From Paenibacillus sp. Root52 (lineage in GTDB: Bacteria; Bacillota; Bacilli; Paenibacillales; Paenibacillaceae): a stretch of 64,000 nucleotides of DNA. The notes beneath the pieces were generated by a model, which did not search any database, was not told the origin of the DNA, and saw only the letters and a program-made list of their open reading frames with translations. Shown piece after piece: positions 23,414 through 40,677 of this stretch (its first letter is position 1; each line of letters starts with the position of its first letter). The position numbers and the translations under genes are program-made. The stretch is from contig NZ_LMFO01000029.1 of the NCBI RefSeq assembly GCF_001426865.1, positions 434,001 through 498,000 of the forward strand, given 5' to 3'.

Positions 23414-25960
23414 ATGAGTACGATACAATCACAGGTTTTTCAGAACTGGACGTTTAAGGCATGCGAGGATCAAGAATGGTTACCCGCACAGGTACCGGGC
23501 TGTGTACATACGGATTTGCTGAAGCTGGGGAAGATTCCAGATCCGTTCTATGGAACGAATGAGAAAGAGGTTCAATGGATTGATAAGAAAGATTGGGAAT
23601 ACCAAACGAAATTTGATGTTCAAGAGAAGTTATTTGCACAGGAGCATCTGGAGCTTGTATTCGATGGACTAGACACCTATGCCGATGTGTATGTGAATGA
23701 TCAACATGTGTTGTCTGCTGACAATATGTTTCGTGTATGGAACGTTGATGTGAAAGCGGTTGTCAAAGCGCAAGATAATGTACTTAGAATTCGTTTCCGT
23801 TCTCCGATTCAAGAAGACCTGCCTAAGCTTGAGAAGCTTGGATACGCACTGCCTGCAGCAAATGATCAATCCGATGTAGGCGAACTCGGAGACAAAAAGG
23901 TGAGTATTTTTGCCCGGAAGGCTCCATATCACTATGGATGGGATTGGGGTCCACGGTTCGTAACAAGTGGCATCTGGCGTGAGGCGCGGTTGGAAGGCTG
24001 GTCTGAGGTGCGAATTAATGATGTATTTATCCAGCAACAGGAAGTGAGCGCGTCGGTCGCTTCATTAACCGCTGTGGTAGAGATTGATGCAGACCATGCG
24101 GGTGATACCGTCATTCGGATCAGTACAGATGGTCAGGTCTGGGAACAGGCTGTAACGTTAAAGTCAGGCCTACAGACCGTAGAAGTTCCTGTTACGATGG
24201 ATCAACCGAAGTTATGGTGGAGCCGCGGACTTGGTGAAGCACATTTGTATTCTTTTGTGACAGAGGTGCTTGCTGGAGAGCGTGTATTGGCGGAATCAAC
24301 GGTTAAGACGGGTATTCGTTCAATTCGTTTGGTTCGTGACAAAGATGAGGTTGGAGCGTCCTTTTATTTTGAGTTGAACGGCGTGGCGGTTTTTGCCAAA
24401 GGAGCTAACCATATTCCGAACGACAGTTTCATTACCGAAATTACGGCTGAGCGTTATCGCCATGAAATTGTCTCCGCTGCGGAGTCCAATATGAATATGT
24501 TAAGAGTATGGGGCGGAGGCATCTACGAAGAGGATGTATTCTACGATTTGTGTGATGAATACGGTCTGTTGGTATGGCAGGACTTCATGTTCGCGTGCAG
24601 TATGTACCCTGGAGATGAAGCGTTCCTAAATAGTGTGAGACACGAAGCTATAGATAACGTTAAACGTCTGCGTAATCACCCTAGTATCGCATTATGGTGT
24701 GGTAACAATGAGATAGATTCAGCGTGGGCTCACTTCAATGAGAATGGTGGCTGGGGCTGGAAGAAAGACTTCAATACAGAGCAACGCGAGAGCATCTGGG
24801 CAGATTACAAAGCCGTTTTCCATGATCTATTGCCAGAAGTAGTGGAAGCCTATGCACCTGGTATTGATTATTGGCCATCTTCACCGCTTGTATCTCTAAC
24901 AGATGACGAGAAACAACATGCTCATCCTTCTACATCCGAAGGAGACATCCATTACTGGGGCGTATGGCATAGTGTTGAACCATTTGAGAACTATAACGTT
25001 CACGTTGGCCGCTTCATGAGTGAATATGGATTCCAATCCTTCCCTGAATATAAATCAGTGCGTACTTATGCCGAGGAACAGGATCTGGCGCTTGAATCCG
25101 AAGTGATGCTGGCTCACCAGAAGAACGGAGCAGGCAATCGTCTGATCAAACAATACATGGATATGTACATGCACGAACCGAAGGATTTCCCTTCCTTCCT
25201 GTACATGAGTCAAGTTCTTCAAGCAGAAGCGATGAAGACAGCTATTGAAGCGCATCGTCGCCGCAAACCGTACTGTATGGGCACGCTCTACTGGCAAATG
25301 AATGATTGTTGGCCTGTAGCTTCATGGGCAGGTATGGACTATCTCGGTCGTTGGAAAGCATTGCAGTACTACGCTAAACGCAGCTTCAGTGATGTACTGA
25401 TTTCAGTAGATGGTACCAAGGAAGATACAACGGATATCTACCTAATCTCTGATCAATTAAAGGCTGTGGAAGGAACATTGCAACTACGGCTCATCGGATT
25501 TGATGGAACTGTGCATCGTGAAGAAGAGCATGAGGTAACGCTTGCGCCGAATTCCGGCCAACAGGTGCTTTCGCTCAATCAAGCAGAATGGTTACAAGGG
25601 CATAGTCCAGCGACAACGTTACTACGACTTGATCTGAAGCAAGAAGGACAGGCGGATATTGTGCAAGAGCACTATTTTGCTCCGTCGAAGGATATCGGCC
25701 TGAAGCAGGCTGAGATTCAGGTAAAAGAAGTTAAGGAGAACGATACAGTGTATCTCGTACTTGAAAGTGATGTTCTTGCTAAACAAGTATGGATCTCGAC
25801 AGAAGCAGAAGGCGTTTTCTCGGATAATTTCTTCGATCTCATTCCAGGTATCCCTGTTAAGGTGAAGTTTACATCAAGAGCCGGACTACAAGATTCAAGT
25901 GCAGTATCGTCTGCGGGTACCATTCAGGTTCGTTCGATGGCTGATTTTATTACGTTATAA
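23414..25960 (+). CDS. GH2-family beta-mannosidase, 848 aa
   Basis: Cytosolic glycosidase cleaving terminal beta-mannosyl residues from mannan or glycan oligosaccharides. The N-terminal sugar-binding fold has WIDKKDWEYQTKFDV and LDTYADVYVND. The signature HYGWDWGPRFVTSGIW is typical of beta-mannosidases. The acid/base Glu is in ALWCGNNEID (E434 counted from 23411), and the nucleophile Glu is in SEYGFQSFPE (E538). No signal peptide. GGAGG lies five bases before the ATG at 23414; an ATG at 23411 is closer. Likely induced through the LacI-type neighbour. Confidence 0.93.
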   Translation: MSTIQSQVFQNWTFKACEDQEWLPAQVPGCVHTDLLKLGKIPDPFYGTNEKEVQWIDKKDWEYQTKFDVQEKLFAQEHLELVFDGLDTYADVYVNDQHVLSADNMFRVWNVDVKAVVKAQDNVLRIRFRSPIQEDLPKLEKLGYALPAANDQSDVGELGDKKVSIFARKAPYHYGWDWGPRFVTSGIWREARLEGWSEVRINDVFIQQQEVSASVASLTAVVEIDADHAGDTVIRISTDGQVWEQAVTLKSGLQTVEVPVTMDQPKLWWSRGLGEAHLYSFVTEVLAGERVLAESTVKTGIRSIRLVRDKDEVGASFYFELNGVAVFAKGANHIPNDSFITEITAERYRHEIVSAAESNMNMLRVWGGGIYEEDVFYDLCDEYGLLVWQDFMFACSMYPGDEAFLNSVRHEAIDNVKRLRNHPSIALWCGNNEIDSAWAHFNENGGWGWKKDFNTEQRESIWADYKAVFHDLLPEVVEAYAPGIDYWPSSPLVSLTDDEKQHAHPSTSEGDIHYWGVWHSVEPFENYNVHVGRFMSEYGFQSFPEYKSVRTYAEEQDLALESEVMLAHQKNGAGNRLIKQYMDMYMHEPKDFPSFLYMSQVLQAEAMKTAIEAHRRRKPYCMGTLYWQMNDCWPVASWAGMDYLGRWKALQYYAKRSFSDVLISVDGTKEDTTDIYLISDQLKAVEGTLQLRLIGFDGTVHREEEHEVTLAPNSGQQVLSLNQAEWLQGHSPATTLLRLDLKQEGQADIVQEHYFAPSKDIGLKQAEIQVKEVKENDTVYLVLESDVLAKQVWISTEAEGVFSDNFFDLIPGIPVKVKFTSRAGLQDSSAVSSAGTIQVRSMADFITL

Positions 25961-25998
25961 TTCACATGTTCTGAATTAAGAAGTGACCTGATGATTAC

Positions 25999-26045
25999 AA
26001 GGCTGTTGACTCTCCCTTTGCGGGGGGGAGCAACGGTCTTTTTTA
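25999..26045 (+). terminator. Terminator after the beta-mannosidase
   Basis: GCTGTTG-CTC-CCC pairs imperfectly with GGGGGAGCAACGG, followed by six Ts. Confidence 0.75.
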
Positions 26046-26128
26046 CTTTATATCAGATTTATTTCTTCCTCAAAGGAGTAACGAATGTTCAACTTGTGCT
26101 TCAATTTGTGGTGCAAATTCGTTATCAT

Positions 26129-26143
26129 TGATAATTATTATCA
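26129..26143. promoter_or_regulatory. Perfect Fur box upstream of the AraC/SBP gene
   Basis: TGATAATTATTATCA is an exact 7-1-7 inverted repeat of the Bacillus-type Fur consensus. It lies 62 bases before the start codon, so expression of the gene should be repressed when iron is plentiful. Confidence 0.88.
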
Positions 26144-26204
26144 TTTGGATGTGATGTAGCTAGGTTAGAGTGATCTATAGAAAGATAGGGGAAAGGAAAA
26201 CAAC

Positions 26205-28112
26205 ATGAGTGTGCATGATCATATTCAATTATGGGATCAAGTTCAGGTACGTGTTCTAGATGTACGTTTCACGATGATCCAGAAGAACGAACAGATGCGA
26301 CGATATGTACTACCTACAAGTACGTTTATATTTATAAGTGGGCGGGGACAACTGTGGTTGAACCATGAGGTGTGGTCTTCGAACCGATTTTTACTATTAC
26401 ATGGAGGCAAAGGCCGATACTTGACGATTGAGGCTACAGAGGCCATTGAAGTTTATTTCATTTTTTACAAAGCAACATTACCATCTAATGTGCTGCGAGA
26501 GTACCATATGATGCTGCTTAACAGTAATCCTTTTGAGCAGAACTGGGCAGAGGAACCGGAACATCCACTGGAGCTACGGGAGCTCTCTCAACATATTCAT
26601 CGCTGCTGGAATGAACAGGATCACCTGGGCAAACTGCAAATCAAAGGGTACTTTTTTCAATTGGTTCAACTTGTGTCCCGGCAGAAGGCAGAGAGACAAG
26701 GCAACGAACAGCTTCCTTCACTGACTGAACAGGTTTTGCGTTATATCTCGAGGCATTTTCGAGAACAGCTCTCGCTGGATACGCTGGCAGAGTCATTGAA
26801 TTATAGCCCGCAGTATCTATCTCGTAAGTTCAAAGAACAGACAGGGGTTACACCTACGGAATACATCATTCAGATGAGAATGAACGAAGCGCGGAACTTA
26901 CTTATCTCAACAGAAGCGACTTTAAATGAGATTGCTGCCTATGTTGGCTACCCAGATCCCTTTTACTTCAACAGAGCTTTCAAGAAGGAAATGGGAACAA
27001 CACCGGGTAAGTTTCGTATTGAGCATCATAAACAATCAAATTGGGTTTCGAAAAACACAAAAAACGCAGCAAATAAGTCCATTGTAAGCGGGCAGCTAGG
27101 ACGTTATCCTTTAGTTGATGATGATAATCATTATCAATTTAATGGAGATGAGGAAGCGGAAATGTTTAACAATCTTAAAGCAGCACTGATGTCACTTGTG
27201 CTGATCTTCACATTGAGTGCTTGTGGCACAGCCACGCAGAGCGCCGTATTGTCTGATGCAGCGGCTGAAGATGTCGAACAGCCTGCTGTTGTAGAGATGA
27301 AAACCGTGAAAACGGCATTTGGGGATGTAGAAATTCCTGCACATCCGCAGCGAGTTGCCGCCATAGATTATTTGGGAACAGTACTTGCTCTTGGTGTGAA
27401 GCCCGTTGGTGGAGGGCAATTTCTGATGAATAGTCCGTATCTAGAGAGCCATTTGGATGGTATTGAAGTCATTGGAGACTCCGTTGAGCAATTAATGGAA
27501 CTGGAGCCAGATCTCATTATCACATTGAATCCCGACAAAGCAGCTTATGAAAAATACAGTCAGATTGCACCAACTGTCTCGATTGCGTCGATTACCTTCC
27601 CAGCACTTAAGGATGAGGTGAATTATTTCGGCGAAGTGCTTGGCAAAGAGGCAGAAGCCCAGGAATGGCTGGCTAACTTTGATGAAGAGATTGCTCAAAT
27701 TAAGCAAAAGGTCAATGATGTTGTACCAGCCGATACAACGTTCTCGGTCATGCAGGAATATGATCGGCAGGTATTTATATTTGGTAATCAGTCGGGACGT
27801 GGAGGACGTAACATTTATGAGTTGCTCGGCCTACAAGCACCTGCAGTAGTACCTGCCGAGTTAATGGAGGGTGCATATCATGAATTCTCCATTGAATTGC
27901 TCTCTAAATACGCAGGAGATTATCTCATTTTGACTAGCAAAGCGCAGCTTGAGGAGCTTCAAGCAGATCCGGTGTGGGGCTCATTGCCTGCTGTTCAGAA
28001 TGGACGTGTGTATTTGTGGACTGAGGAAGAGTCTTGGTTCCGTGATCCGATTGCTCTGCTGAAGCAGACACAAGATCTGGCTGAATGGATCATTGATCTC
28101 AATACACAATAA
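26205..28112 (+). CDS. AraC-type regulator fused in frame to a siderophore-binding lipoprotein, 635 aa
   Basis: Residues 1-170 are a cupin-like sensor. Residues about 175-275 are an AraC double HTH (LSLDTLAESLNYSPQYLSRKF and NEIAAYVGYPDPFYFNRAFKKE). Residues 350-635 are a FecB/FeuA-type metal-siderophore binding domain (VAAIDYLGTVLALGVKPVG). The layout recalls Btr of B. subtilis, whose binding domain senses Fe-bacillibactin in the cytosol. The oddity is residues 320-340: Met, Lys, a hydrophobic stretch and lipobox LSAC (C340), a complete lipoprotein signal with its own upstream GAGG and Fur box. There is no stop between the two parts. Confidence 0.85.
   Translation: MSVHDHIQLWDQVQVRVLDVRFTMIQKNEQMRRYVLPTSTFIFISGRGQLWLNHEVWSSNRFLLLHGGKGRYLTIEATEAIEVYFIFYKATLPSNVLREYHMMLLNSNPFEQNWAEEPEHPLELRELSQHIHRCWNEQDHLGKLQIKGYFFQLVQLVSRQKAERQGNEQLPSLTEQVLRYISRHFREQLSLDTLAESLNYSPQYLSRKFKEQTGVTPTEYIIQMRMNEARNLLISTEATLNEIAAYVGYPDPFYFNRAFKKEMGTTPGKFRIEHHKQSNWVSKNTKNAANKSIVSGQLGRYPLVDDDNHYQFNGDEEAEMFNNLKAALMSLVLIFTLSACGTATQSAVLSDAAAEDVEQPAVVEMKTVKTAFGDVEIPAHPQRVAAIDYLGTVLALGVKPVGGGQFLMNSPYLESHLDGIEVIGDSVEQLMELEPDLIITLNPDKAAYEKYSQIAPTVSIASITFPALKDEVNYFGEVLGKEAEAQEWLANFDEEIAQIKQKVNDVVPADTTFSVMQEYDRQVFIFGNQSGRGGRNIYELLGLQAPAVVPAELMEGAYHEFSIELLSKYAGDYLILTSKAQLEELQADPVWGSLPAVQNGRVYLWTEEESWFRDPIALLKQTQDLAEWIIDLNTQ
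27122..27136. promoter_or_regulatory. Second perfect Fur box, inside the AraC/SBP ORF
   Basis: TGATAATCATTATCA, an exact 7-1-7 Fur site, lies 26 bases before the internal ATG at 27162. A possible promoter (TTGTAA at 27082, TATCCT at 27105, spacing 17) precedes it. Confidence 0.85.
27162..28112 (+). CDS. Possible separately translated siderophore-binding lipoprotein (internal start), 316 aa
   Basis: The ATG at 27162 is in frame with the upstream AraC part and is preceded by GAGG at about nine bases. From here the product is a standard iron-siderophore ABC substrate-binding lipoprotein: signal MFNNLKAALMSLVLIF, lipobox LSAC with lipid-Cys at residue 21, then the PBP fold. Whether cells make this form, the long fusion or both cannot be told from sequence. 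No permease or ATPase gene lies nearby. Confidence 0.6.
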   Translation: MFNNLKAALMSLVLIFTLSACGTATQSAVLSDAAAEDVEQPAVVEMKTVKTAFGDVEIPAHPQRVAAIDYLGTVLALGVKPVGGGQFLMNSPYLESHLDGIEVIGDSVEQLMELEPDLIITLNPDKAAYEKYSQIAPTVSIASITFPALKDEVNYFGEVLGKEAEAQEWLANFDEEIAQIKQKVNDVVPADTTFSVMQEYDRQVFIFGNQSGRGGRNIYELLGLQAPAVVPAELMEGAYHEFSIELLSKYAGDYLILTSKAQLEELQADPVWGSLPAVQNGRVYLWTEEESWFRDPIALLKQTQDLAEWIIDLNTQ

Positions 28113-28161
28113 TAATCACATGAATATAAATTATTCAGCTTACGTATTCCATGTAAAAAAC

Positions 28162-28200
28162 GTGCTGCTCCGTTTTCTCCGGTGCAGCACATTTTTGTTA
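28162..28200 (+). terminator. Terminator after the AraC/SBP gene
   Basis: GTGCTGCTCCG pairs with CGGTGCAGCAC with one mismatch, followed by TTTTT. Confidence 0.85.
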
Positions 28201-28283
28201 TATGTAAGACTTATCGTGTGTGCGAGAGAAAGTATCCGCCGTAAAAGAACATTGGGCAGGACTTAGCGCTTGCAAGCCTGCAG

Positions 28284-38874: not shown

Positions 38875-40677
38875 ATGGAAAAAATACGTACACGCGCTGA
38901 AGTCGCGGAGGAAACAACCTGGAATTTGCAAGATTTATTTGCCACCGACGCAGAATGGGAAGCAGAGCTTAGATCTCTCCCTGAAGCGGCTGCACATGTC
39001 GAAACATTCAAAGGTCGCTTAGGTGAAGGTGCAGAACAGTTATTGGCTTGTCTCGATGCCTTAGAAGCGCTTCAGGAACGGATCGTAAAGACCGCTTCGT
39101 ATGCTCGACTGAAGCAGTCTGAAGACAGTACGAATTCTGTAAATATTGAAAATTCTGCGAAAGCAGGGGACATCCTCTCTCATTTGTCATCGTCGTTGTC
39201 CTTTGTTCATTCTGAGATTACAGATCTTCCTGAAGGTACAGTGGAACGATATATAGAGGAGCTTCCAGGTCTCCGGAATTATGCTCGCAGTTTGAATCGA
39301 TTAATTAAAGACAAAAAACATCGCTTATCTCCCGAAACCGAGAAGGTACTTGCTTCACTTGGAGAGGTATTGGATTCACCGTACCGGATCTATCTGCGAG
39401 GTAAACTAGCAGATATGAAGTTTGATGATGCGCTCGATGAGGAAGACAACAAACGTCCATTGTCTTGGTCTTTTTATGAGAATAATTATGAAATGTCTTC
39501 GGATACGAAGCTACGTCGCTCAGCCTATGCGGCATTCAGTGCCAAACTGAACGATTACAAAAATACGTTCGCTGAAGGTTATGCCGCAGAAGTGAAAAAA
39601 CAGGTCGTGATGTCCCGGTTAAGGGGTTATGACGATGTGACGGACATGCTCCTTAATTCACAACAAGTGAGCAAAGAAATGTACAATAACGTGCTGGATA
39701 TTATCCAGAAGGAACTTGCACCACATATGCGAAGACTTGCTGCGCTTAAGAAAAGAGAACTCGGTTTGGACAAGTTAATGTTCTGTGATCTGAAGGCTCC
39801 TCTTGATCCAGAATTCAGTCCAGCGATAACCTATGAAGAAGCATGTAAGTTAATTCAAGAAGCACTTGCTGTGCTTGGACCAGAATATGGTGAGATTGTA
39901 GAGCGGGCATTCAATGATCGCTGGGTGGACTATGCGGATAATGCAGGTAAATCGACCGGAGCGTTCTGTTCCTCGATCTACGGTGCACACTCGTATATTC
40001 TCATCTCTTGGGCAAATAACATGCGCGGAGCATTTACACTTGCTCATGAAGTGGGACATGCTGGACATTTCATGCTTGCTGGACGTTACCAGAGTCTGAC
40101 CAATACCAGACCCTCGTTATATTTCATAGAAGCGCCTTCAACAATGAATGAAATGTTGCTCGCAGACCATCTACTTCAAAAATCCGATAATCCGAGAATG
40201 CGGCGCTGGGTTATTTTACAGCTTCTCAATACGTATTATCATAACTTTGTTACGCATCTATTAGAAGGTGAACTGCAGCGTCGTGTCTACGCTCTGGCAA
40301 CCAAGGATCAACCGATTACAGCCCAAACCTTGAGCCAGCTCAAAGGTGATATTCTCTCCGAGTTCTGGGGGCCGGAACTGGTCATTGACGAAGGTGCGAA
40401 GTTGACCTGGATGAGACAACCTCATTATTACATGGGATTATATCCATACACCTATGCGGCTGGCCTAACTGCATCCACTGCCGCCGCTGTACGTATACGT
40501 GAAGAAGGACAACCGGCAGTGGATCGCTGGCTCGAAGCACTTAAGTCGGGTGGAAGCCTTGATCCGCAGGAATTAATGAAGCTTGCTGGTGTGGATATGT
40601 CCGGGCCAGAACCCATTCGCTCGGCTGTAGCTTATGTTGGCAGTCTGGTCGATGAACTCGAACGTCTGTATTCCTAA
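38875..40677 (+). CDS. pepF: Oligoendopeptidase F (M3 family)
   Basis: Cytosolic zinc oligopeptidase that trims peptides of roughly 7-17 residues. The zinc site is H391-E-V-G-H395 in TLAHEVGHAGHF, with the downstream Glu in the IEAPSTMNEMLL segment. The N-terminal TTWNLQDLFATDAEWEAEL and the C-terminal PYTYAAGLTAS block agree with PepF, and 600 aa is standard. TTAGGAGG precedes the ATG. A single-gene transcript with its own terminator. Confidence 0.95.
   Translation: MEKIRTRAEVAEETTWNLQDLFATDAEWEAELRSLPEAAAHVETFKGRLGEGAEQLLACLDALEALQERIVKTASYARLKQSEDSTNSVNIENSAKAGDILSHLSSSLSFVHSEITDLPEGTVERYIEELPGLRNYARSLNRLIKDKKHRLSPETEKVLASLGEVLDSPYRIYLRGKLADMKFDDALDEEDNKRPLSWSFYENNYEMSSDTKLRRSAYAAFSAKLNDYKNTFAEGYAAEVKKQVVMSRLRGYDDVTDMLLNSQQVSKEMYNNVLDIIQKELAPHMRRLAALKKRELGLDKLMFCDLKAPLDPEFSPAITYEEACKLIQEALAVLGPEYGEIVERAFNDRWVDYADNAGKSTGAFCSSIYGAHSYILISWANNMRGAFTLAHEVGHAGHFMLAGRYQSLTNTRPSLYFIEAPSTMNEMLLADHLLQKSDNPRMRRWVILQLLNTYYHNFVTHLLEGELQRRVYALATKDQPITAQTLSQLKGDILSEFWGPELVIDEGAKLTWMRQPHYYMGLYPYTYAAGLTASTAAAVRIREEGQPAVDRWLEALKSGGSLDPQELMKLAGVDMSGPEPIRSAVAYVGSLVDELERLYS

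Follow-up and report, generated by a model that had tools for sequence, protein, structure and literature searches.

The question raised by this locus is whether a single open reading frame (ORF) specifies one protein or two. The ORF occupies positions 26205-28112 on the plus strand of the window, that is, of the whole 64-kb stretch of DNA that was analyzed, which derives from the 6.6-Mb genome of Paenibacillus sp. Root52 (G000, referred to as the source genome). It joins an AraC regulator to a siderophore-binding domain, and the linker between these halves contains a Fur box, a ribosome site, and a second in-frame start that opens a lipoprotein signal. The answer that we consider probable, drawn from sequence comparison, is a dual-output iron-uptake gene under Fur control, the long product of which would be a siderophore-responsive regulator and the embedded promoter and start of which would give rise to a lipoprotein.

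Two halves and two likely starts in one frame

The ORF begins with ATG and remains open over all of its 635 codons. The AraC-type DNA-binding domain (HTH_18; residues 194-271, positions 26784-27017) reaches 88.3 bits at a cut-off of 33.6, which places the protein among the AraC family regulators, and the Peripla_BP_2 domain (residues 426-607, positions 27480-28025) reaches 95.2 bits at a cut-off of 27.5. The solved chains closest to the binding domain are FhuD and ferrichrome-binding proteins (E 1e-41); with this likeness and the domain score, the C-terminal half classes as a siderophore-binding lipoprotein. The fusion of both parts, already noted in an earlier sequence-only reading of this DNA, is hereby confirmed. 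Full-length relatives exist, the nearest named one being found in Paenibacillus xylanilyticus with 77% identity. The ribosome site of the 635-amino acid (aa) long product, AGGGGAAAGGA, is directly readable at 26187-26197.

The linker (27031-27161) is open in frame and, judging from the linkers of the 33 gene clusters described below, appears to serve as regulatory DNA as well. Exact matches to TGATAATNATTATCA occur twice on the plus strand, once ahead of the whole ORF (26129-26143, TGATAATTATTATCA) and once within the linker (27122-27136), where the box codes for most of the peptide DNHYQ; no other exact match is present within the 64 kb. When up to three mismatches are allowed, 11 sites are found in the window compared with 7.35 expected by chance, a figure that refers to this relaxed scan and not to exact matches. 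One of the weaker Fur-like sites, with two mismatches, lies at 39477-39491. Downstream of the inner box follow the ribosome site GGAGATGAGG (27144-27153) and the in-frame ATG at 27162, which opens MFNNLKAALMSLVLIFTLSAC ending in the lipobox LSAC. Read from its own start, the short product (27162-28112, 316 aa) hence has an N-terminal signal (27162-27224) and a lipobox cysteine (27222-27224), features that are also present in relatives, and it is predicted to be an exported and lipid-modified FhuD-like lipoprotein. The two exact boxes, the ribosome site, the inner ATG, and the signal with its lipobox had all been pointed out before and hold on direct reading and motif scan.

Conservation of the joined frame

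With the joined protein as query, 58 of the 75 genomes of the genus give a match (E ≤1e-70); a seven-member profile matches 107 of the 197 genomes of the family, Paenibacillaceae (1e-80), and 35 of the 299 genomes of the class, Bacilli (1e-100), some of the profile matches being binding domains alone or genes without a signal. Fifteen of the matching class genomes lie outside the window's family; among them, G267 contributes a binding domain only and G366 a gene without lipobox (L221). The source genome itself contains five joined genes with an inner signal (L001-L005). Loci were picked by hand from the matches listed in the genus, family, and class searches. They gave 176 distinct genes that carry an inner signal; these belong to the family of the window and to further families of the class and fall into 33 clusters with less than 60% identity in the binding domain. 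One representative was counted per cluster. A first count relied on a motif that missed some genes, for example the source-genome paralogue L004, and the recount to 176 used a wider one; it leaves aside 16 long frames without the motif and 10 open frames scored as signal-less, one of which (L201) has a visible lipobox and the Fur-box peptide and lies below the hydrophobicity limit. The analyses of promoter hexamers, outer Fur box, synonymous change, box placement, trees, and charge use a smaller set of 150 genes in 31 clusters.

In the 33 linkers, the joined frame has no stop, compared with 53 and 188 stops in the two alternative frames; the zero is a selection effect, as only open frames with a lipobox and a length of at least 540 codons had been admitted. 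A less biased test is provided by the AraC half as the only query, which presupposes no joined frame. It has matches in 80 of 197 genomes, and of 150 matches listed, 145 lie in a frame of at least 634 codons (counted by eye), a length that is by itself no proof of an inner signal; the five that are unjoined are L243-L247. Two of the 145 (G039:C6 and G201:C1:5555635, that is, L094 and L208) contain a stop within the AraC half. The frame is kept although the linker peptide is free to vary, with a non-synonymous diversity of 0.28-0.50 across the eight clusters tested. Both signal and fused frame recur over the 33 clusters, with no consistent stop between the halves, and the recurrence of the same anatomy in clusters so diverged appears to be more than chance. 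A recently lost stop or an assembly error, which was considered as a candidate, is rejected in view of the conservation of the joined frame across the relatives listed.

Conservation of the inner Fur box, ribosome site, and start

In 32 of the 33 clusters, the 100 nucleotides (nt) ahead of the inner start contain a Fur box matching at least 11 of 14 positions, an exact one in 16 of them, compared with 4 of 541 control windows from the same genes. As the inner start, we took whichever ATG, GTG, or TTG scored best within a span of 19 codons, and the choice was made alike in the control spans; a combined score of start and ribosome site of -10.5 or lower was reached by 28 of 33 clusters and by 34 of 1011 control spans searched identically. 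With only these three codons considered, the chosen start is ATG, GTG, and TTG in 30, 2, and 1 clusters, respectively (169, 5, and 2 of the 176 genes). The distance from Fur box to start is exactly 40 nt in 22 of 32 clusters, and the encoded peptides vary.

Synonymous change points in the same direction. In the window's cluster, which comprises 22 genes, the six codons of the Fur box show none at all, and the 15 codons before the inner start show less than each of the 554 other 15-codon windows. For seven of the eight largest clusters, these 15 codons are the lowest in synonymous diversity (0 of 554-580 windows each as low); for the eighth, 5 of 584 windows are as low. Two starts in one frame, the second belonging to a Fur-controlled lipoprotein, are hence the part of the earlier two-product proposal that the 33 clusters and the suppressed synonymous change appear to bear out. 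For the long product, a membrane-spanning location is as possible as the cytosolic one that had been proposed. Taken as a whole, the comparison shows that the open frame is conserved, and so are the inner start with its Fur box and ribosome site and the signal with its lipobox.

Ahead of the whole ORF, a Fur box with at least 12 of 14 matches is seen in 21 of 31 cluster representatives, a count made without control and with the outer start placed roughly.

Putative operator and promoter in the linker

When the linkers are aligned on the Fur box, the word TCCATTG recurs. The window has one copy at 27078-27084, which by the family pattern is a likely regulator-binding box, and exactly 22 nt on, at 27100-27106, a partial further box, GACGTTA (5 of 7 matches to TCCGTTA). 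A pair scoring at least 11 of 14 is found in 15 of 33 clusters compared with 17 of 541 controls, the spacing is exactly 22 in 12 of these 15 pairs compared with 1 of 17 in the controls (16-30 allowed), and with a third, degenerate copy another 22 nt on, triples scoring at least 13 occur in 25 of 33 clusters and 2 of 541 windows; the pair and triple counts are flattered, the spacing less so, as the box words were derived from these same linkers. A spacing of 22 is no multiple of three and puts the copies in different reading frames, which speaks for DNA signals rather than a peptide repeat. The target sites of AraC-type regulators are tandem repeats spaced by roughly two turns of the helix. Across the family, the linker repeats look like such an operator just upstream of a putative inner promoter, with one clear copy in the window.

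That promoter would consist of two weak hexamers flanking the inner Fur box, a possible −35 (TTGATG, 27115-27120) and a possible −10 (TTTAAT, 27138-27143) with a 17-nt spacer and 9 of 12 consensus matches. Hexamers with at least 8 of 12 matches lie near the inner Fur box in 27 of 31 clusters, compared with 239 of 687 control windows, in a stretch that is rich in A and T.

The same parts are also found in ordinary intergenic DNA. In one orthologue group (L006, L224-L226, L228, and L229), stand-alone lipoprotein genes next to Btr-like regulators are preceded by TCCATG twins 24 nt apart, a Fur box of 12/14, and a strong ribosome site. Because these parts sit intergenically in this group, it appears that in the dual gene a normal promoter region has become part of the coding frame. 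In a survey of 20 stand-alone lipoprotein genes, made without control, Fur box and ribosome site recur before the other genes as well, and their repeat pairs match at 8 to 10 of 14 positions, as in the controls of the linker analysis.

Several observations weigh against a dual-output gene with its own inner promoter, in addition to the shared origin of box words and counts. After synonymous re-coding of the linker peptide in 14 clusters, a Fur-like box or a ribosome site was often retained (p 0.05 to 0.99); by this test, which has little power, Fur box and ribosome site in single genes often do not seem to exceed what the peptide imposes. The source-genome paralogue L005 keeps the start, the ribosome site, and the lipobox and has lost the inner Fur box (7/14), its outer one remaining at 13/14. 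A general promoter scan of 25950-28250 gave no plus-strand promoter at the threshold of the tool, and the hexamer score near the inner box gains only modestly over control. Of the suggested promoter, what stands is the pair of bracketing hexamers at 9 of 12, without a call by the scan, and it is the weakest part of the proposal. The window's own copy of the array has one exact and one partial repeat, its first box (CACAAAA at 27056) not being recognizable, and upstream of the outer start no repeats above the control level were found. Finally, the relative L246 is interrupted within the linker while its two halves are otherwise intact, so that a loss of the joined frame need not damage either half. 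In favor of the dual output, this natural split copy retains an intact-looking lipoprotein gene that begins at the inner start.

Proposed mechanism

At low iron, Fur would leave both promoters, and the outer one would drive the whole ORF, giving an AraC regulator with its siderophore-binding domain. This long product, presumably with a ferric siderophore in its own domain, would bind the direct repeats in the linker DNA of its own gene. With the regulator on the repeats and Fur absent, the inner promoter would be turned on, and translation of the inner transcript from 27162 would produce the binding domain only, to be exported as a lipoprotein. The lipoprotein would then feed a FecCD permease encoded elsewhere; 16 matches to FecCD permeases are present in other parts of the genome and none on contig C29, which carries the window. 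We infer in this scheme the inner promoter, the binding of the regulator to the repeats, the control by ligand, the permease partner, and the location of the long product.

If the scheme is true, a whole promoter region, with repeats, Fur box, ribosome site, and start, is located inside the coding linker of the regulator that would act on it. One binding domain would then be used in two products, such that the specificities of sensor and receptor cannot diverge. The gene would be a clear and widespread bacterial case of two products in two places, and annotation as one protein would overlook the lipoprotein.

Alternative explanations

The long product carries the same signal peptide internally, and its sequence could equally place it in the cytosol or across the membrane. 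The alternative that survives best, to which we give a lesser though appreciable chance, makes it a type II membrane protein that has the AraC half inside, the binding domain outside, and the lipoprotein signal as anchor, and that would sense external siderophore directly; lipoprotein signal peptidase may cut it into a membrane-tethered regulator and a lipoprotein, and the inner start would add further lipoprotein. The first nine residues of the short form have a net charge of +1 to +4 in 148 of 150 genes, a positive part that fits an N-inside orientation, and in 137 of 150 the 15 residues before it have a net negative charge. The long frame retains signal and lipobox, in genes that were chosen for the lipobox; however, the short form needs the signal anyway, so that its conservation is uninformative on the long form. 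Internal sensing is also possible, as the Btr-like regulators of the source genome share the domain order without a signal. L221, which lies within the clade of the dual genes, has lost the lipobox and keeps the joined frame nonetheless. A more elaborate form of the membrane alternative, which we regard as rather doubtful, is an AraC receptor that spans the membrane by the lipoprotein signal and in which siderophore bound outside would govern cleavage at the lipobox and so release or silence the regulator, with plain lipoprotein made from the inner promoter of the same frame. If true, sensor, receptor, operator, and promoter would be united in one sequence.

It is very unlikely that the locus consists of two neighboring genes that have lost the stop between them, as the sequence-only reading had offered for an alternative, and have a joined product without a role. 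In its favor, L246 is split with two intact-looking halves, and the linker peptide is more variable than the domains. Set against this are the open linkers of the 33 clusters (selected as open) next to the stops of the other two frames, the joined state of 145 of the 150 AraC-half matches listed, and a frame that apparently outlived an exchange of the binding domain (see below). An open linker is common to relatives at about 30-48% identity and is kept in nearly all listed matches. The least likely explanation is a joined protein only, in which case the inner Fur box would serve as roadblock or as second operator and the ATG at 27162 would be a plain methionine codon; it meets no contradiction from expression data. 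Against it stand the strong ribosome site before that codon, the constant spacing of this site to the Fur box despite a variable peptide, and the use of GTG or TTG where methionine is absent (L134, L202, and L097; only ATG, GTG, and TTG considered).

Relation to Btr and other systems

Btr (YbbB) of Bacillus, an AraC regulator with a FeuA-like binding domain, is a bacillibactin-responsive activator; it has no signal between its halves, and the lipoprotein is encoded by a separate neighboring gene, feuA. The ORF had been labeled Btr-like, and the domain order, an AraC half and a siderophore-binding domain in one chain, agrees with that label. The rest of it does not: the Btr-like genes of the source genome have no export signal between the halves, whereas the ORF contains one with LSAC; it scores 95.5 bits with the Btr model NF049932 (NCBIfam), below the cut-off of 900; and in a tree of AraC halves, 13 Btr-like regulators form one clade (0.991) with the 31 dual genes tested outside. 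The usual layout, found at several sites of the source genome, is an AraC/binding-domain regulator without a signal and, next to it, a lipoprotein gene of its own. For Bacillus, PMC3896406 places ybbB (btr) as a regulator upstream of feuA, with both listed under fur. The dual gene resembles this pair in an AraC half followed by a siderophore-binding domain, in Fur control, and in a partner with a related domain, and differs in having both in one frame with promoter parts within the coding linker.

In the tree of AraC halves, the dual genes form one group (support 0.86), with the signal-less L102 at the base and L221 inside, whereas their binding domains intermingle with those of stand-alone lipoproteins. 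Because of this difference, the joined frame, or the cassette of AraC half and linker, seems to have been kept through an exchange of the binding domain. Among the 31 cluster representatives, binding domains have apparently been swapped repeatedly behind the conserved cassette. L221 has lost the lipobox and any recognizable Fur box and ribosome site and has kept the joined frame; it is a single case in which a weak signal may remain, L246 with its broken linker being the reverse case, and L221:1384-3492 seems to be a dual gene turned into a signal-less Btr-like regulator.

FhuD and FhuD2, the hydroxamate-siderophore-binding lipoproteins, are alike in the closest binding domain, the lipoprotein signal, and the Fur box, the difference being that the lipoprotein of the dual gene would be read from within the frame of a regulator. 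ToxR and CadC represent membrane-bound one-component regulators. The long form, if it inserts, would share with them a DNA-binding half inside, one membrane segment, and a sensor outside; it would differ in that the domain is of the AraC type instead of a winged helix, the segment is a lipoprotein signal, and a second start exists. Several products from one bacterial gene are described for the AerR isoforms (PMC6199135), and hbp35 mRNA gives rise to three cytoplasmic proteins and a modified cell-surface form (PMC2907840). The dual gene differs from both in that its short product is equipped with a complete export signal and, by prediction, with a separate promoter under Fur control, and in that a regulator and the protein it regulates lie within one frame. 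No description of a nested regulator/lipoprotein arrangement was found among the open-licence papers listed, as judged by titles and the openings of abstracts.

Broken copies and neighboring loci

The unjoined copies besides L246 are broken in different ways. In L245, the frame is interrupted close to where the linker begins, and the lipobox is missing too; L243 is broken within the signal. L244 and L247 have no recognizable signal and a binding domain out of frame, with an additional stop in the AraC half of L247. In L112 and L113 (G005 and G054), the frame breaks just past the lipobox, which would affect both products; L230 is broken in both halves, and the binding domain of L056 is cut. None of the breaks of L094, L208, L112, L113, L230, and L056 is located in the linker.

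Some partial matches were considered as split genes and rejected. At L223-L226, L228, and L229, a Btr-like regulator precedes a lipoprotein gene that is separate from it; for L227, the AraC half is absent from the stretch examined; and L115 has no AraC gene in the 1 kb upstream. G034, which is given as the same species as the source genome, has no close match to the window's gene (best E 1.4e-94), and its copy of the C9 paralogue (L230) is broken at several places. In some genomes, two dual genes are arranged in tandem, head to tail, as noticed at L037, L038, L039, and other loci, for example, at G049:C1:1247969-1249894 and 1250111-1252051.
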